DNA of 5,756 nt from an uncultured archaeon. GTDB taxonomy: Archaea > Thermoproteota > Nitrososphaeria > Nitrososphaerales > CALBXV01. The stretch covers positions 1-5,756 of the forward strand of contig CALBXV010000199.1 of NCBI GenBank assembly GCA_937890045.1, in the 5' to 3' direction. The notes beneath the pieces were generated by a model. That model did not search any database. It saw only the letters and a list, made by a program, of their open reading frames with translations, and was not told where the DNA came from. The position numbers and the translations under genes are program-made. Positions 1-5,756 of the stretch are shown piece after piece. The first letter of the stretch is position 1. Each line of letters starts with the position of its first letter.

Positions 1-450
1 AAAATATTTATCTAAGAATTGATAAAATTTGTCGCCATTGATATCTTTAGTATATTTTCTTAATCGTGCTTTATTATCGAATTTGTATCTATCATAGCAC
101 ATCCATCCAATATGTGACCACCAAAAACCTTGACTTGCGTTATGTGGATCATTTGTTGTATCCGATGCTTCATGATGCATTCTGTGTTGTGCTATCCATT
201 TTAGAGGGCCGTTCTGGCAGGCAAGTGTTCCACAAAATACAACAAAATAGTCTAGCCATTTTGGTAGGAATACGCTTCTGTGGCATAGATATCTGTGAAA
301 TCCGAAACAGACTCCTATACTGGCTGTAAGCCAATACATAAAGGCAAACAGACCAACCGCTGACCAACAGAATGTAGATGGGAGAAAAGCTAGGAGAGCT
401 CCTAGATGTAGAAAGATGAACCAGCCGATAGTTGTTTTATTCAATTTCAT
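1..450 (-). CDS. Membrane fatty acid desaturase (acyl-CoA/acyl-lipid delta-9 type), N-terminal 150 residues; C-terminus beyond left edge
   Basis: The minus strand from 450 to 1 is one open frame of 150 codons with no stop. Seen: two hydrophobic stretches (about residues 8-24 and 28-50), then HRYLCH (52-57), matching the HX4H box; a third hydrophobic stretch (about 67-79); QHRMHH (88-93), matching the HXXHH box; then DPHNASQGFWWSHIGW (101-116), very close to the DPHN...GFFFSHVGW segment of delta-9 desaturases. In this family the histidine boxes ligate a di-iron centre that inserts a double bond into a fatty acyl chain using O2 and electrons from ferredoxin or cytochrome b5; it is an integral membrane enzyme. 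The third histidine box normally lies after residue 200 and so is off the window. The ATG at 450-448 has AAGG at 458-461 (plus coordinates), about 7 bases upstream. GC is about 38% by hand count, above the genes to the right. Family is secure; bond position and substrate are inferred. Confidence 0.93.
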   Translation of the reverse strand, partial: MKLNKTTIGWFIFLHLGALLAFLPSTFCWSAVGLFAFMYWLTASIGVCFGFHRYLCHRSVFLPKWLDYFVVFCGTLACQNGPLKWIAQHRMHHEASDTTNDPHNASQGFWWSHIGWMCYDRYKFDNKARLRKYTKDINGDKFYQFLDKYF

Positions 451-524: not shown

Positions 525-1028
525 ATGGCAATTCGTAACCAACCAACCAACCTCAATCAGCTTAACGTAGTATCGTTTGAAACTAACTTTCTTAGAATGC
601 CTAATGTCAGCTATTTCTGCCAAAGGGTGAGTATTCCAAGTATCACATTAAGCAACACTATTCAAGCAACACCATATTCTAATATCCCAATAGAAGGAGA
701 TGTATTAGAGTTTGAAGATTTATCTTTAAGTTTTATCGTTGATGAAGATATGCAGAATTATTTAGAACTTTATAACTGGCTTCAATCATTGGGATTTCCA
801 GACAGATATGCTCAATTTGATAATGAAACATTAGCTATTAAATCTGATATGAATATTATCATACATACGAATAAATCAAATCCAAATTATAGTATAGGGT
901 TTAAAGATGTATTTCCAACATCTCTTGGAACTATCGCTTTTGACACTAACGCTACCACATTAGATCCAATAGTAGTGGATGTTGTCTTTAAATATACGGG
1001 GTCGTTTACCGTAAGCAAACTAACTTAA
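525..1028 (+). CDS. T4 gp19-like tail-tube-fold structural protein
   Basis: 167 residues, close to T4 gp19 (163). The alignment I can make by eye runs through the body: YFCQRVSIPSITLS (30-43) against the FQCKATALP region of gp19, IEGDVLEFEDLSLSFIVDED (56-75) against its VAGDRTFDDWTVTVMNDE, and a C-terminal FKDVFPTSLGTIAF (126-139) followed by beta-rich VVDVVFKYTGSF, against IKGLWPTNVGELQLDW and VTLALDYWE. That pattern is typical of the tube/baseplate-hub beta-barrel family in contractile tails. AAGGA at 513-517 sits 7 bases before the ATG, and a late promoter lies upstream. In T4 the uvsY neighbour is also a tail gene (25), so the position is conserved in kind. It could be the main tube subunit, a tube initiator or a baseplate paralogue; the window cannot decide. 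Confidence 0.75.
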   Translation: MAIRNQPTNLNQLNVVSFETNFLRMPNVSYFCQRVSIPSITLSNTIQATPYSNIPIEGDVLEFEDLSLSFIVDEDMQNYLELYNWLQSLGFPDRYAQFDNETLAIKSDMNIIIHTNKSNPNYSIGFKDVFPTSLGTIAFDTNATTLDPIVVDVVFKYTGSFTVSKLT

Positions 1029-1071: not shown

Positions 1072-1503
1072 ATGGATATTAGTGATTTAAAAGAAATGTG
1101 TGCGAAAGACACGAAAATTGATGTTACTGACCTTGATGGGTATTCTGTATCAATTCCCGAATTATCTAACAAATATCATCAACTAGCTTATACTGAAAAA
1201 AATCTTTTACGTTTTCTTCAAAGTGAATATAAAATTATAAAACTTGCTAGATGGAAGTATTATTCTGGAAAGGCTGATCCAAAAGAATATGAAGATGAAC
1301 CATTTGATTTGAAAGTTTTAAAAAATGATATGGATATGTTTTTAGATGGTGATGCTCAAATTCTTACTATAAAGAATAAGATGGACGAGCAAGAAGAAAA
1401 AATTAAATTGATAAATGAAACTGCTAAAGTTATTCAAAATGCATCATTTAATATTAGTAATACTATAAAATGGAAAAAGTTTTTAGCGGGTGATTTGACA
1501 TGA
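1072..1503 (+). CDS. uvsY: UvsY recombination mediator protein
   Basis: UvsY binds ssDNA and loads the UvsX recombinase by displacing gp32, starting strand exchange in recombination-dependent replication. This 143-residue protein is close to T4 UvsY (137) and aligns without gaps over its first part: D13, I16 and D17 match, and LARWKYYSGK (58-67) lies at exactly the same residues as T4 LKARLDYYSGR. Within it R60, Y63, Y64, S65 and G66 are identical. T4 K58, which I recall as a ssDNA-binding residue together with R60, is leucine here, with a lysine at 57. The following acidic DLKVLKNDMDMFLDGDAQIL (99-118) matches the T4 SEMKTVLSADKDVLKV region. The stop overlaps the uvsW start as ATGA, directly joining the two genes that T4 separates with small ORFs. 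No clear Shine-Dalgarno precedes the ATG. Confidence 0.88.
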   Translation: MDISDLKEMCAKDTKIDVTDLDGYSVSIPELSNKYHQLAYTEKNLLRFLQSEYKIIKLARWKYYSGKADPKEYEDEPFDLKVLKNDMDMFLDGDAQILTIKNKMDEQEEKIKLINETAKVIQNASFNISNTIKWKKFLAGDLT

Positions 1504-2987
1504 TAGTTGTTGCAAAGTTAAATGAAACATATATACAATTGTCCTGTGAACGACATATTGCTTATGAATTAAATGAATACTTTTCTTTTAAAGTCCCCAA
1601 TGCACAATTTCATCCAAAAGTAAGATCAAAAATGTGGGACGGAAAGATAAGACTTTTTAATATACAGACGGGTCAACTGTATCTAGGTTTACTTCCTTAT
1701 CTAAAGGAATGGGTTGAGAAACATTCTTATAAACTACAAACAGATATTGTAGATGCCAGGCATTTAAAAGAAGGTGATATAGATAAGATTAAAGAGTTCT
1801 TTGATTCACTTAACCTTCATTGTAAGGGTGAAAAGATAACACCTAGAGATTACCAGATATCATCTTTTATGCATTGTGTTAAGAATGATAGATCATTATT
1901 GTTATCACCTACATCATCTGGAAAAAGTTTAGTTATATATTCTTTAATAAGATGGTATCAAAGATTTTTAGATAATGACAAGATGTTATTAGTTGTTCCT
2001 ACTACAAATTTAGTTTCTCAAATGTATGGTGATTTTGGTGACTATTCATCTAATGTTGATGATTGGGATGTAGAAGAACAATGTCATAAAATATATTCTG
2101 GTAAAGAAAAGAAAGCAGAACAACAAATATATATTAGTACTTGGCAAAGTCTATATAGATTACCGAAAGAATATTTTGAACAGTTTTCTTTAATAGTAGG
2201 TGATGAAGCACATTTAGCAACAGCTAATTCATTGAAAGGTATTTTAGAGAAAACAACATCTTGTAGGTATAGATTTGGGACAACGGGAACATTAACAGAT
2301 TCTAAAACACATAAATTAGTATTAGAAGGATTATTTGGAAAAACATATACAGCTACTACATCAAAAGAATTAATGGATGATAAGCATATTTCTAAATTGA
2401 ACATACAATGTTTGCAATTAGAATATCCAGAAGAAGAATGTAAAGAGTTGAAGAAGGCTACATACCAAGAAGAAATAGATTTTATTGTTACACATACAAA
2501 ACGAAATAACTTTATATGTAATCTGGCTTTAGATCAAAAGGGTAATACGTTGATTCTATTTAATTATGTAGAGAAACATGGTAAAGTTTTAGAAAAGATG
2601 TTATTAGACAAACAACCTAAAAGACGAATCTTTTTTATAGCAGGTGAAACAGATGTTGAACAAAGAGAAGAAATTAGAAAGGCAACAGAAGAAGAAAGGA
2701 ATGCAATAATTGTTGCAAGTTCTGGTGTGTTATCAACTGGTGTAAATATCAAAAATTTACAATATCTAATCTTCGCACATCCATACAAAGCAAAAGTGAG
2801 AAACTTACAGTCAATTGGTCGTGTATTGAGATTGGATGATAAGAATAATAAAGCAGTATTATATGATATTATAGATGATCTACATTATAAGAAACATCAA
2901 AATTATGGACTGAAACATTGGAAGGAAAGGTTGAATATTTATCTGAAGGAGAAGTTTGATTATAATTATACATTAATACCATTATAA
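1500..2987 (+). CDS. uvsW: UvsW superfamily 2 RNA-DNA and recombination helicase
   Basis: UvsW is a DEAH-type ATPase that unwinds R-loops and branched DNA, regresses stalled forks, and shifts T4 from origin-dependent to recombination-dependent replication. The protein has 495 residues, T4 UvsW about 500. The N-terminal domain carries WDGKIRLF (46-53), like the T4 WDGRIRLL. Helicase motifs in order: Q-motif-like TPRDYQ (114-119), Walker A PTSSGKS (137-143), PTTNLVSQM (167-175), ISTWQSL (212-218), DEAH (235-238) followed by LAT as in T4, TTGTL (261-265), TYQEEI (321-326, identical to T4), SSGVLSTGVNIKNL (407-420) and QSIGRVLR (437-444). The C-terminus EKFDYNYTLIPL resembles T4 EKFNYVMKTVNL. All catalytic motifs are intact. 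It starts at the ATGA shared with the uvsY stop, which implies translational coupling. Confidence 0.96.
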   Translation: MIVVAKLNETYIQLSCERHIAYELNEYFSFKVPNAQFHPKVRSKMWDGKIRLFNIQTGQLYLGLLPYLKEWVEKHSYKLQTDIVDARHLKEGDIDKIKEFFDSLNLHCKGEKITPRDYQISSFMHCVKNDRSLLLSPTSSGKSLVIYSLIRWYQRFLDNDKMLLVVPTTNLVSQMYGDFGDYSSNVDDWDVEEQCHKIYSGKEKKAEQQIYISTWQSLYRLPKEYFEQFSLIVGDEAHLATANSLKGILEKTTSCRYRFGTTGTLTDSKTHKLVLEGLFGKTYTATTSKELMDDKHISKLNIQCLQLEYPEEECKELKKATYQEEIDFIVTHTKRNNFICNLALDQKGNTLILFNYVEKHGKVLEKMLLDKQPKRRIFFIAGETDVEQREEIRKATEEERNAIIVASSGVLSTGVNIKNLQYLIFAHPYKAKVRNLQSIGRVLRLDDKNNKAVLYDIIDDLHYKKHQNYGLKHWKERLNIYLKEKFDYNYTLIPL

Positions 2988-2998
2988 GGAATAAGAAA

Positions 2999-3166
2999 AT
3001 GAGTAAAAGTAGGAAAAAAAATAATAAAGATAGATTTGAGAAAAAGAAGATGATTGCCATTAAGAATAAAAATAAAAAAATCCTTGAACAGGAGGAACCG
3101 TTCGATGAAAACGATGAAGAAGAAATATTGTTGTACCAAATGCGACAAGAAAACATTACAAACTAA
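2999..3166 (+). CDS. Small highly charged protein of unknown function (55 residues)
   Basis: I do not recognise this protein. It starts 11 bases after the uvsW stop with a good AAGGA (2986-2990) 8 bases before the ATG, the same kind of site used by its neighbours. The product is split by charge: residues 2-30 are very rich in lysine and arginine (SKSRKKNNKDRFEKKK at the start), and residues 30-42 are mostly acidic (EQEEPFDENDEEE), followed by a short LLYQMRQENITN tail. There is no cysteine and no hydrophobic segment, so a small soluble, possibly nucleic-acid- or protein-binding helix is plausible, but that is inference. Its last 62 bases overlap the next gene in another frame. Alternatively it is a non-functional reading frame that merely bridges translation to the zinc-ribbon gene. 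Confidence 0.6.
   Translation: MSKSRKKNNKDRFEKKKMIAIKNKNKKILEQEEPFDENDEEEILLYQMRQENITN
3090..3095 (+). promoter_or_regulatory. Perfect Shine-Dalgarno AGGAGG inside the upstream ORF
   Basis: AGGAGG ends 9 bases before the ATG at 3105 and is the strongest ribosome binding site in the window. It decides the start of the zinc-ribbon gene: the earlier in-frame ATG at 3054 has no such site. In the overlapping frame the same bases contribute to the Gln-Glu-Glu codons of the 55-residue protein. Confidence 0.8.
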
Positions 3167-3287
3167 TTGTTCAGAAGGTTTTACTGGTAGTCAATATTAT
3201 TTAGATTATGCGTGTGATGAATGTGGAGGTATTAATACCTTTCTCACTAAAAAACACCTAAAGGATATAAATGAAATTAAAAATTAA
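3105..3287 (+). CDS. Small zinc-ribbon protein, first of two (60 residues)
   Basis: I do not recognise the specific family. The frame is open from an ATG at 3054, but the ATG at 3105 is chosen because a perfect AGGAGG precedes it; this also removes an arginine/lysine-rich 17-residue extension. The product has CTKC (10-13) and CDECG (37-41), two Cys-x2-Cys knuckles separated by 23 residues, the spacing of a single zinc ribbon. Extra cysteines are at 9 and 22. The segment between the knuckles (EGFTGSQYYLDYA) should form the beta strands. It overlaps the previous gene by 62 bases and the dUTPase start by 17 bases, so it belongs to the same operon. A nucleic-acid or protein-docking role is typical for such ribbons, but the partner here is unknown. 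Confidence 0.75.
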   Translation: MKTMKKKYCCTKCDKKTLQTNCSEGFTGSQYYLDYACDECGGINTFLTKKHLKDINEIKN

Positions 3288-3696
3288 AAATATAAGTGAT
3301 AATCCATTACCATGTTATAAAAACGTAGGTGATGCTGGAATGGATATATGTAGTAATGAAGATGTGAAAATTTCTCCATTTAATTGGAAACTGGTATCAA
3401 CTGGAATATTTTTAGAGATACCGGAAGGTTATGAAGTACAAGTTAGGTCACGGTCAGGGTTAGCAGCTAAACATGGTATTATGGTGTTAAATAGTCCAGG
3501 TACTATTGATTCTGGTTATCGTGGTGAAGTTAAAGTTATTTTAATGAATCATAACCATCATTCTTATTATGTTAAAAGGGGAGATAGAATTGCACAGTTG
3601 GTTATGGCCCCAGTAGTTACAGCAGAAATTGAAGAGGTATCAGAATTAACTAATACTGAACGTAATGAAGGTGGATTTGGGAGTACAGGGAAATGA
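3271..3696 (+). CDS. dut: dUTPase (dUTP diphosphatase, trimeric type)
   Basis: Hydrolyses dUTP to dUMP and pyrophosphate, keeping uracil out of phage DNA and providing the precursor of dTMP. All five motifs of the homotrimeric dUTPase family are present in order in 141 residues, the usual length: GDAGMDI (20-26), RSRSGLA (59-65), GTIDSGYRGE (77-86) with the catalytic Asp at 80 and the uracil-stacking Tyr at 83, RGDRIAQLV (103-111), and the C-terminal lid RNEGGFGST (131-139). AAGGA (3261-3265) lies 5 bases before the ATG. The start overlaps the zinc-ribbon gene by 17 bases and the stop overlaps gene 55 as ATGA. T4 instead uses the unrelated dCTPase-dUTPase gp56, tied to its hydroxymethylcytosine DNA; this type of dUTPase is consistent with a phage using ordinary cytosine, though that is only an inference. 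Confidence 0.97.
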   Translation: MKLKIKNISDNPLPCYKNVGDAGMDICSNEDVKISPFNWKLVSTGIFLEIPEGYEVQVRSRSGLAAKHGIMVLNSPGTIDSGYRGEVKVILMNHNHHSYYVKRGDRIAQLVMAPVVTAEIEEVSELTNTERNEGGFGSTGK

Positions 3697-4223
3697 CAGA
3701 TAAAAAGAAACATTATGTTGATAACGAAAAGTTTTTTATAGAAATTAAGAAATGGAAGCAGAGAGTTATTGATGCCAGAGAAGTTGATGATCCAGATCCA
3801 CCATCAACAGAATATATGGGTGAATGTTTTTTAAAAATATCCGAGAACTTAGCATGGAGACCAAATTTTATTAACTATACATTTAGAGATGATATGGTTT
3901 CTGATGGGATTGAAAATTGTTTGTTATATGCTCATAACTTCAATCCAGAGAAATCAAAAAATCCATTTAGTTATTTTACACAAATTATACACCATGCTTA
4001 TGTAAGACGTATTACAAAAGAAAAGAAACAAATGTATATAAAATACCGTGTCATAGAAAATGAGGGTATTATAGAACAATTAAAAAATAGTAAGGAAGAA
4101 ACTAATAATAAATTACCATTAAAACAATACAAAGATTATTTAATATCACATGAAAAATATGCTGACAATCCTCAACCAAAGAAACCAAAAAAAAAGTCTA
4201 AACTTGAGCATTTTATGAAATGA
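3693..4223 (+). CDS. 55: T4 gp55-like RNA polymerase sigma factor for late transcription
   Basis: Gp55 binds host RNA polymerase core and recognises the TATAAATA element of late promoters; in T4 it is activated by the sliding clamp gp45. This protein has 176 residues (T4 185). The sigma-region-2-like core is clear: DDMVSDGIENCLLYAHNF (66-83) against T4 KQEMIADGIEASIKGLHNF, then NPFSYFTQIIHHAYVRRITK (90-109) against [20 protein letters not shown], followed by EKK. The N-terminal YVDNEKFFIEIKKWK matches T4 YVNNKELLQAIIDWK. The lysine-rich tail ends in SKLEHFMK (169-176), placed and spaced like the clamp-binding SLDFLYE near the end of T4 gp55. A run of nine A (4187-4195) encodes the lysines just before it. 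It overlaps dUTPase and proline dehydrogenase by ATGA at either end. An exact target promoter lies at 472-479. Confidence 0.93.
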   Translation: MTDKKKHYVDNEKFFIEIKKWKQRVIDAREVDDPDPPSTEYMGECFLKISENLAWRPNFINYTFRDDMVSDGIENCLLYAHNFNPEKSKNPFSYFTQIIHHAYVRRITKEKKQMYIKYRVIENEGIIEQLKNSKEETNNKLPLKQYKDYLISHEKYADNPQPKKPKKKSKLEHFMK

Positions 4224-5062
4224 AACTTCTATATCCATTAGCAAAGAGATTTATCGCAGGACATGATTTTGATTCTGCTAAACCAGTTATTGCTGATTTA
4301 AGGGAACAAGGTTATGGAGTAACGATTGATTATCTTGGTGAATTGAGTACAACTATTGATGATTGTGAAAAGGCAGAAAAACAATATTTAGATATAATAG
4401 AATATTATAAAAAACCTTTAAAAACAGGTCCCATTGATATATCTATCAAACCAACCCAACTAGGTTTAAAACTAAACAAAGAAATATGTTTTAAATTACT
4501 ATCAAATATAACATCACAAGCAAGACAATATGACATAACTATTCGTTTAGATATGGAAGATTCCTCTGTAACACAAGATACGATTGATATGTGCTTGAGG
4601 GTATGGGAGAATAATCCAAATATTGGTATAGCTCTTCAAAGTAATCTTTACAGAACTATTAATGATCTACCAGTATTAATGTCAAAAGGAATATCAGTTA
4701 GATTAGTTAAAGGCGCTTATAAAGAAAGTATAACAAAAGCATATCAACAAGACGTTTTTAAAGTTGATGCATATTTAGCATTATCACGGGTATTATTATA
4801 TGGTAACAAGAAACATGCTATCGGGACACATGATGAAACCATTATTGAGTTCATTAAGGAACAAGGTAACCCCCATACTCATTATGAGCTGTTATACGGG
4901 ATTAGAAGGGATATAAGTTCTTCCTTGTTAAAGGAAGGATATAATGTTACACTATATATTCCATTTGGTGAAAAATGGCTTCCTTATACAATAAGAAGAT
5001 TGAAAGAGTTTAAAAACTTAAAATTTGTTATTATTAATATATTAAGGGAAATGTTTAAGTGA
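4220..5062 (+). CDS. Proline dehydrogenase (monofunctional, FAD-dependent), phage auxiliary metabolic gene
   Basis: Oxidises L-proline to 1-pyrroline-5-carboxylate, passing electrons through FAD to the membrane quinone pool. The 280 residues cover the whole TIM barrel; bacterial monofunctional enzymes such as Bacillus PutB have about 300. Seen: GYGVTIDYLGE (31-41), SIKPTQLGL (75-83) with the expected lysine at 77, RLDMEDS (109-115) with Asp 111, ALQSNLYR (138-145), VRLVKGAYKE (160-169), GTHD (202-205), ELLYGIR (223-229), and the signature YIPFGEKWLPYTIRRLKE (246-263) containing the Arg-Arg pair (259, 260) and Glu 263 that bind the proline carboxylate in characterised enzymes. Nothing essential appears missing. 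There is no aldehyde dehydrogenase domain, so the product must be finished by a host enzyme. The start overlaps the gene 55 stop as ATGA and the stop overlaps the next gene; its AT content resembles its neighbours, so it looks well settled in the operon. Confidence 0.95.
   Translation: MKLLYPLAKRFIAGHDFDSAKPVIADLREQGYGVTIDYLGELSTTIDDCEKAEKQYLDIIEYYKKPLKTGPIDISIKPTQLGLKLNKEICFKLLSNITSQARQYDITIRLDMEDSSVTQDTIDMCLRVWENNPNIGIALQSNLYRTINDLPVLMSKGISVRLVKGAYKESITKAYQQDVFKVDAYLALSRVLLYGNKKHAIGTHDETIIEFIKEQGNPHTHYELLYGIRRDISSSLLKEGYNVTLYIPFGEKWLPYTIRRLKEFKNLKFVIINILREMFK
5044..5049 (+). promoter_or_regulatory. Shine-Dalgarno AAGGGA supporting a GTG start
   Basis: AAGGGA ends 9 bases before a GTG at 5059 whose last two bases fall within the TGA stop of proline dehydrogenase. 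The alternative in-frame ATG at 5077 has no purine-rich site in front of it, so the GTG is preferred as start of the second zinc-ribbon gene. Confidence 0.6.
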
Positions 5063-5247
5063 ACAATTATTATGTTATGTCTTTTGAAGAATGTGCAAGA
5101 TGTAGACAGTTCGAGCCTGACCATAAACATAGGAATTGTAGTTTTGATATAGAACATAAAGGTAGTATAACAATACAAACTTTTGAATGTACAAGATGTC
5201 ATTTTAAGTGGACTAAGGAATATAATCATGAAAATAGCTCTTATTAG
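5059..5247 (+). CDS. Small zinc-ribbon protein, second of two (62 residues)
   Basis: No specific family recognised. It has CARC (12-15) and CTRC (44-47), Cys-x2-Cys pairs separated by 28 residues, with a histidine-rich DHKHRNC (21-27) between them and FECTRCHFKWTKEY after the second pair, the usual look of a single zinc ribbon. The start is a GTG overlapping the proline dehydrogenase stop; a shorter version from the ATG at 5077 would keep both cysteine pairs. Its end overlaps the gene 47 start by 20 bases. The overlaps at both ends and the motif spacing make it a real gene rather than chance. The role is unknown; it could be a DNA-, RNA- or protein-binding accessory of the flanking replication and transcription proteins. 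Confidence 0.78.
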   Translation: MNNYYVMSFEECARCRQFEPDHKHRNCSFDIEHKGSITIQTFECTRCHFKWTKEYNHENSSY

Positions 5248-5756
5248 TGACCAACATTTCGGTGGGAAACAAGATAGTCAATCCTTCTTAAATTATATAG
5301 AACATTTCTATACTAAGCAGTTTTTCCCTTACTTGTTAGAAAACAATATTAAAACAGTTGTTGATTTAGGTGATACCTTTGATCGTAGAAAGTATGTAAA
5401 TTTTCATACGTTACACCAGGTAAAGCAGTTTTATTTTGATAATTTAAATAAATGTGGTATTACATTATATTCTATTGTAGGTAACCACTCCACATATTAT
5501 AGAAATACTAATAATGTTAATAGTTCTGAATTACTCTATGGTCATTATGAGAATATTAGCACATATCCATCCCCAACTACAATAACATTAGATGGTGTTA
5601 ATATTGATTTAATCCCGTGGATTAACTCTGAAAATTATGATGAGACAATAGAGTTTATTAAAAATTCAAAATCACAAGTTTTATTTGGACATTTAGAAAT
5701 AGATGGATTTGCTATGTATAAAGGATATGTAGCAGACTCTGGGCTTTCTAGAAAGA
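5228..5756 (+). CDS. 47: T4 gp47-like recombination endonuclease subunit (Mre11/SbcD family), N-terminal part; runs off right edge
   Basis: Gp47 is the metallophosphoesterase nuclease that, with the ATPase gp46 (Rad50/SbcC family), resects double-strand ends so that UvsY and UvsX can start strand invasion. 176 complete codons are present; T4 gp47 has about 340. Visible motifs: SDQHFGGK (7-14) against T4 GDWHLGVK, LGDTFDRRK (47-55) against YGDIFDVRK, GITLYSIVGNH (77-87) against GITLHTIVGNH, IDLIPW (126-131, identical), and FGHLEIDGF...YKG (153-166) against VGHWELNGF...YKG. The metal-binding D8, H10, D49 and N86 and catalytic H87 are present. The residue after GNH is Ser 88, where T4 and most relatives have Asp. 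AAGGA (5215-5219) lies 8 bases before the ATG. Gene 46 would be expected downstream. Confidence 0.95.
   Translation, partial: MKIALISDQHFGGKQDSQSFLNYIEHFYTKQFFPYLLENNIKTVVDLGDTFDRRKYVNFHTLHQVKQFYFDNLNKCGITLYSIVGNHSTYYRNTNNVNSSELLYGHYENISTYPSPTTITLDGVNIDLIPWINSENYDETIEFIKNSKSQVLFGHLEIDGFAMYKGYVADSGLSRK

Follow-up and report, generated by a model that had tools for sequence, protein, structure and literature searches.

A predicted proline dehydrogenase overlapping the late sigma factor gene in a family of marine T4-like viruses

The stretch of DNA considered here, called the window throughout, comprises 5,756 nucleotides (contig CALBXV010000199.1 of assembly GCA_937890045.1, filed under an uncultured archaeon) and carries a gene for proline dehydrogenase (PRODH) directly behind gene 55, which encodes the late sigma factor. 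The core set gp19, UvsY, UvsW, gp55 and gp47 is present in T4-like order (Table 1), which identifies the DNA as that of a T4-like virus; phage Mosig exhibits the same core order, except for extra genes in between, and a T4 portal is found on one relative (G010). Within the window, dUTPase, gene 55, PRODH, a small open reading frame (ORF) named orf62 and gene 47 form a single overlapping run. A preliminary description of this DNA had pointed to the four-base ATGA overlap with gene 55 and to an overlap with the next ORF, and both are there, the second one being the GTGA at 5059-5062, provided that orf62 starts at the GTG at 5059; in two relatives (L001 and L002), the match to orf62 begins at that same point. 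The description also placed PRODH between gene 55 and gene 47. It does lie directly after gene 55, but orf62 separates it from gene 47, which orf62 overlaps in turn.

Members of the PRODH family convert L-proline to pyrroline-5-carboxylate (P5C), quinone being reduced through flavin adenine dinucleotide (FAD). The window protein matches PF01619 (Pro_dh) over residues 23-263 (E 1.4e-25; 90.9 bits, the gathering score being 27), and the closest known enzymes are monofunctional bacterial PRODHs of this family from Thermus thermophilus (2g37/2ekg) and Deinococcus radiodurans (4h6q/4h6r), with 2ekg as the best solved relative by sequence (E 1.1e-37). The predicted fold is the (beta/alpha)8 barrel of the solved PRODHs; compared with 2g37, the protein appears shorter at its N-terminus, residue 1 of the model aligning with residue 25. 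A PutA-type fused P5C dehydrogenase domain is absent, the protein consisting of the PRODH domain only. This phage-encoded protein scores 176 bits with the Thermus equivalog profile NF045947 (ProDh_Thermus), under its 500-bit cut-off, as does the chromosomal Nitrospina PRODH of L048 (224 bits).

The active-site set Lys77, Asp111 and Tyr256-x-x-Arg259-Arg260-x-x-Glu263 is complete, as the preliminary description had it, and K77, D111, Q140, R161, K164, Y167, H204, Y246, Y256, R259, R260 and E263 do not vary across any of the 44 viral rows of the alignment; we take these residues to serve in the active site and in flavin contacts. The gene is under purifying selection, with dN/dS of 0.21-0.36 in four comparisons (window against L010, L004, L005 and L008); the constraint is weaker than on gene 55, for which dN/dS is 0.05-0.15 in three comparisons with dS saturated in two, but the ratio is clearly below 1. 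The claim of an intact, full-length PRODH with exactly these boundaries is thus upheld, and the product is a monofunctional enzyme predicted to work. A substrate other than L-proline, for instance hydroxyproline, could be imagined from the gene of a 2-oxoglutarate (2OG)-Fe(II) oxygenase that follows PRODH in one relative, since some members of that superfamily hydroxylate proline. Tyr246, however, is invariant in the 44 viral and in 55 other rows; it presumably corresponds to Tyr540 of Escherichia coli PutA, and the title of PDB entry 3e2q names Y540S with hydroxyproline. We therefore regard another substrate as very improbable.

Table 1. Location of the features of the window and of the related loci mentioned in the text
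Feature	Position	Strand	Evidence or remark
Fatty acid desaturase, N-terminal part	1..450	-	PF00487, E 4e-7; runs off the window
gp19, tail tube	525-1028	+	PHROG profile match, phrog_45
UvsY	1072-1503	+	PHROG profile match, phrog_231
UvsW helicase	1500-2987	+	PHROG profile match, phrog_16
dUTPase	3271..3696	+	PF00692, E 3.5e-34; ATGA overlap with gene 55
Gene 55, late sigma factor	3693..4223	+	phrog_234, E 3.5e-56
ATGA stop/start overlap of gene 55 and PRODH	4220..4223	+	Sequence; gene 55 ends ATG AAA TGA
Proline dehydrogenase (PRODH)	4220..5062	+	ORF of 280 aa, ATG start; FAD-type (beta/alpha)8 barrel (predicted)
orf62	5059..5247	+	62 aa, GTG start, GTGA overlap with PRODH; paired cysteines that resemble a zinc ribbon by eye
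Gene 47, SbcD-like nuclease subunit	5228..5756	+	phrog_100, E 7.4e-64; read from ATG 5228, runs off the window
purC in relatives	L053:4719-5474; L059:3621-4376		Between dUTPase and gene 55
purM-like gene in a relative	L004:3451-4341		Between PRODH and orf62
2OG-Fe(II) oxygenase gene in a relative	L057:6884-7492		After PRODH
Tryptophan-halogenase-like gene	L148:7534-9075		PF04820, E 1.3e-102; between genes 55 and 47 of a T4-like contig
Full-length version of the desaturase	L216:3341-4126		
PRODH with ornithine-cyclodeaminase-family gene, second virus group	L262:4470-6204 (cyclodeaminase-family gene 5293-6204); L033; L068; L072; L260:2506-3462		
Aldehyde dehydrogenase, second virus group	L260:17075-18694		

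A survey of related phages for PRODH at this locus, proposed in the preliminary description, gave a positive answer. In IMG/VR, the window protein by itself retrieved 27 loci and an alignment retrieved 64, and 50 PRODH-bearing T4-like loci were sorted, near-copies counted and two of them being contigs filed under bacterial metagenome-assembled genomes (MAGs). PRODH follows gene 55 immediately in 41 of the 50, of which 30 loci include gene 47 further downstream and 11 do not include it; it lies 3.2-4.7 kb past gene 55, beyond gene 47, in eight, and one locus does not include gene 55. Among the 41 adjacent loci, the PRODH start and the gene 55 stop overlap by four bases in 35 and by one base in five, the exception being L041, whose gene 55 match falls into two pieces, giving a computed gap of 97; this locus was counted as adjacent. 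The site can be empty in relatives. Genes 55 and 47 overlap each other in the cultured phages Melnitz-3 and Mosig. Among the best 80 of 597 gene 55 matches, which do not allow a frequency to be estimated, 72 loci have genes 55 and 47, and 69 of these carry no PRODH on the locus, the gap between the two genes being below 100 bases in 54 of the 69; the three with PRODH (L078, L079 and L080) repeat contigs already in the set. As a cell-type metabolic gene in a virus genome, with an empty site in relatives and under selection, PRODH falls into the established class of auxiliary metabolic genes.

That PRODH is instead a passenger, a host gene in decay or an artefact of assembly might be suspected from the one doubtful cultured-phage match described below. 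The same junction, with open frames, recurs across 41 loci drawn from numerous metagenome records, dN/dS is well under 1 and the viral rows stand apart from the cellular ones, so that we give this possibility hardly any credence. Matches to PRODH occur in seven of 50,697 cultured-phage records, at 25-31% identity. The match in 'Microcystis phage MaAM05' (L028, MW495066.1 98265-109077) was discarded, as the stretch reads as bacterial DNA: its neighbours are flagellar fliM, murJ, bioD and an acyl-CoA dehydrogenase, and the source of the record is hospital wastewater. Staphylococcus phage records (MG543995.1 88228-89007, OR844993.1 and OR850249.1) match at 31% identity and possibly represent host DNA; faecal and Acinetobacter records are also among the seven.

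The flanks of gene 55 form a hotspot for cargo among the core genes, where metabolic genes come and go. In relatives, purC sits upstream of gene 55 (two loci), a purM-like gene separates PRODH from orf62 and the oxygenase gene mentioned above follows PRODH (Table 1). An ORF of L050 that resembles this oxygenase had no match in an NCBIfam scan, its only scan, and an ORF of L051 at the hotspot had none either. In five of the 69 PRODH-less loci (again among the best 80 of 597 matches), genes 55 and 47 are held apart by about 0.4-1.5 kb of other DNA, for instance by a tryptophan-halogenase-like gene in the T4-like contig L148. The preliminary description had expected PRODH to be made with core proteins and not from cargo kept apart from them; with purC, a purM-like gene and an oxygenase gene at the same spot, and PRODH itself well downstream of gene 55 in eight of 50 loci, this contrast fails, because here cargo is loaded into the core run. 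The neighbours also bear on whether PRODH serves control rather than fuel, by depleting proline, an osmolyte and stress protectant, or by producing P5C and reactive oxygen, and so blocks a host stress or defence response. P5C and H2O2 from PRODH do act as signals in cellular systems, but the inserted neighbours identified in relatives all encode enzymes of biosynthesis or oxidation (the padloc defence families were outside the search), and we judge such a role improbable.

Ribosomes finishing gene 55 would start PRODH, given its placement in the overlapping run, and we infer from the ATGA that the two genes are translationally coupled and that PRODH would be co-expressed with the core proteins. 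Sigma-70-like sites in 2900-5756 do not exceed shuffled sequences (17 against 19.6), and the late-promoter-like TATAAATA occurs only once, at 472-479, where 1.9 are expected; with site counts at or below expectation, no claim of an own or late promoter for PRODH is possible. Against L010, dS is lower at dUTPase (0.28) and PRODH (0.24) than at gene 55 (0.69) and gp19 (1.8), hinting at an exchange of these pieces between lineages. A Pfam scan assigned no family to orf62, which is matched in relatives, including several with PRODH elsewhere. A second small cysteine-rich ORF at about 3105-3287 is likewise without a Pfam family, and both are matched in many relatives.

The ancestry of the gene was examined in a midpoint-rooted tree of 99 rows, in which the window was joined by 83 loci and 15 database proteins; 21 locus ids that were near-copies or repeats and the loci with incomplete PRODH were left out. 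The viral PRODHs form one group (support 82/78; 84% of bootstrap trees) that contains the T4-like group (100/100), a second group (95/89) and L040 outside both. This viral group is joined (100/99) to a family of gammaproteobacteria whose genomes measure 1.1-1.6 Mb, and the PRODHs of Nitrospinota lie further out (98/84). The chromosomal enzymes of these two lineages, short and monofunctional like that of the window, are the closest cellular relatives found. In genome searches, PRODH was matched in seven of 11 genomes of the gammaproteobacterial family (37-49% identity), in 46 of 77 Nitrospinota genomes (40 near full length, at 41-47%) and in 60 of 100 genomes of the phylum Marinimicrobia (at most 37%, once a phage contig in G006 is set aside). 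Both the tree and these identities indicate that the window gene was not copied recently from any of the host genes sampled.

Excerpts of published accounts describe PRODH in the Ostreococcus algal virus OtV5 and in haptophyte viruses (PMC2386258, PMC11953307, PMC9787589), the OtV5 protein having 253 aa and a suggested bacterial origin (PMC2386258, PMC11953307). These genes belong to large DNA viruses of eukaryotes and lack a T4-like context; the likeness drawn here is by description, not by sequence. A literature search found no report of PRODH in a prokaryotic virus, but supplementary tables were outside that search and an unremarked entry in a list of auxiliary metabolic genes is quite possible. 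Closer in kind are the auxiliary metabolic genes of T4-like cyanophages and pelagiphages (purC, purM and 2OG oxygenases), also host-type genes at an exchange site of a T4-like genome, from which the present cargo differs in serving proline catabolism.

As the PRODH tree leads to the gammaproteobacterial family and the desaturase to Nitrospinota, the ancestry of PRODH was set aside as the sole clue to the host, and the desaturase encoded at the edge of the window is the better one. All nine organism-named proteins among the best 120 matches of the full-length desaturase are from Nitrospinota, and relatives were found in 49 of 77 Nitrospinota genomes at 54-68% identity. Gammaproteobacteria were matched in 67 of 114 cases at 38% identity at best, the sister family in the PRODH tree in none of 11 genomes (with the 150-aa piece of the window as query) and Marinimicrobia in two of 61, one a misfiled phage contig and the other a 35% match. 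In the desaturase tree, one branch sets off Nitrospinota (94/100) and another the gammaproteobacteria (91/93). No tRNA gene that might point to a host was detected in 13 stretches. Weighing these comparisons with the contrary observations given below, we consider the odds that the hosts are Nitrospinota to be about even.

Taken together, we favour, with a probability of about 0.68, the reading that PRODH is a working monofunctional enzyme and an auxiliary metabolic gene of a marine T4-like myovirus family, coupled to gene 55, delivering electrons to quinone and acting in hosts that are most likely Nitrospinota. The gene, its intact active site, its overlap, spread and selection are read directly from the sequences, with a fold predicted from them; the activity, electron acceptor, timing and host are inferences. 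Several observations weigh against this reading. The PRODH tree does not favour a Nitrospinota donor, the viral rows siding with the gammaproteobacterial family, the branch that sets the viral PRODHs apart reaches only 82/78, and no phage-type PRODH was found in the 77 Nitrospinota genomes (best full-length match, 47% identity). In the desaturase tree, the viral rows are split in two, outside Nitrospinota, with the deep order unresolved; that tree drew a long-branch warning and held only Nitrospinota, gammaproteobacteria and viral rows, no other phyla. The desaturase is present in 13 of the 24 loci that reach more than 700 bases upstream of gp19 and is therefore not tied to PRODH. Finally, phage contigs were co-binned with a Marinimicrobia UBA2980 MAG (L041, DEAO01000004.1) and an Acidimicrobiaceae SP304 MAG (L042, PBHE01000046.1), both carrying T4-like phage genes in the order of the window.

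According to the favoured reading, the PRODH made from the hotspot during infection would bind FAD and oxidise host L-proline to P5C, passing the electrons to the membrane quinone pool and thus bypassing host control of proline use. By analogy with the family, delivery to quinone and the respiratory chain is likely, and proline electrons would feed respiration while phage DNA is made. Nitrospinota are nitrite oxidisers that do much of marine nitrite oxidation, and nitrite is a poor reductant, such that nitrite oxidisers need an energy input for uphill electron transfer to quinone. PRODH would deliver low-potential electrons straight to quinone in such cells, and would matter more there because electrons must otherwise be pushed uphill.

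The fate of P5C is less simple than proposed in the preliminary description, which had a host P5C dehydrogenase supplying glutamate. TIGR01237, a profile for that enzyme, was over its cut-off in none of 12 Nitrospinota genomes and none of four genomes of the gammaproteobacterial sister family, their completeness not given, and in none of eight virus records, with three of 14 controls over it. Of the Nitrospinota aldehyde dehydrogenases, four, encoded in three genomes, were examined singly; the best scores were those for ketoglutarate-semialdehyde, phenylacetaldehyde or lactaldehyde dehydrogenase, again under the respective cut-offs. TIGR01236 was over cut-off in none of 19 and is uninformative, since none of 14 controls passed either. 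The claim is thus not supported, and the TIGR01237 result leaves room for a P5C dehydrogenase of another type.

A second virus group bears on the same question; it comprises 14 distinct loci, or 17 if three exact repeats are counted. Here PRODH is found on larger IMG/VR contigs, up to 178 kb, among a different gene set. Seven of the 14 loci carry an ornithine-cyclodeaminase-family gene within the stretch examined (PF02423 in the two tested), and four of these seven genes overlap PRODH or lie within 25 bases of it; an aldehyde dehydrogenase is encoded elsewhere than PRODH on the records G014 and G015, not on G013. The closest solved structure to the cyclodeaminase-family protein is the archaeal alanine dehydrogenase 1omo, followed by pyrroline-2-carboxylate reductase and by lysine and ornithine cyclodeaminases, and the exact reactions of this putative enzyme and of the aldehyde dehydrogenase are unsettled. 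That a second virus group has a proline-related enzyme next to PRODH speaks for a metabolic role of the viral enzyme, and the pairing with an aldehyde dehydrogenase suggests that a route leading from ornithine or proline towards glutamate may be encoded by some viruses.

For the window, a glutamate route, in which host P5C dehydrogenase would yield glutamate for the glutamine-dependent synthesis of purines and pyrimidines for phage DNA, draws on these adjacent cyclodeaminase-family genes, on the aldehyde dehydrogenase in two of three tested records and on the purC and purM-like genes at the hotspot of relatives. The Nitrospinota genomes without a TIGR01237 match speak against it, as do the viral aldehyde dehydrogenase, with 257 bits against a cut-off of 660 and better scores as other enzymes, and the absence of aldehyde dehydrogenase matches from five T4-like records (G008-G012, which are fragments), and it appears to us possible but doubtful. 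The lack of a canonical P5C dehydrogenase in the suspected hosts would suit a proline cycle, which is known biochemistry: host P5C reductase (ProC) would return P5C to proline, moving electrons from NADPH to quinone with no proline consumed. Such a drain on NADPH would compete with dNTP synthesis, which makes the cycle unlikely.

More tentatively, it may be proposed that these T4-like phages infect Nitrospinota with PRODH as an electron source that spares the uphill transfer from nitrite and pays for phage DNA, and that the longer scheme of the second lineage (cyclodeaminase-family enzyme, PRODH and aldehyde dehydrogenase) reflects a recurring viral takeover of proline catabolism in the ocean, a speculation that we would not expect to hold in full. 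Among T4 core genes, PRODH together with the desaturase, the latter present in roughly half of the loci, offers a testable marker pair for such phages in metagenomes. If the enzyme works, proline catabolism joins the metabolic steps carried by marine phages, at a position linked to the control of late genes; should the hosts be Nitrospinota, these viruses would provide a handle on the viral redirection of electron flow in nitrifiers.
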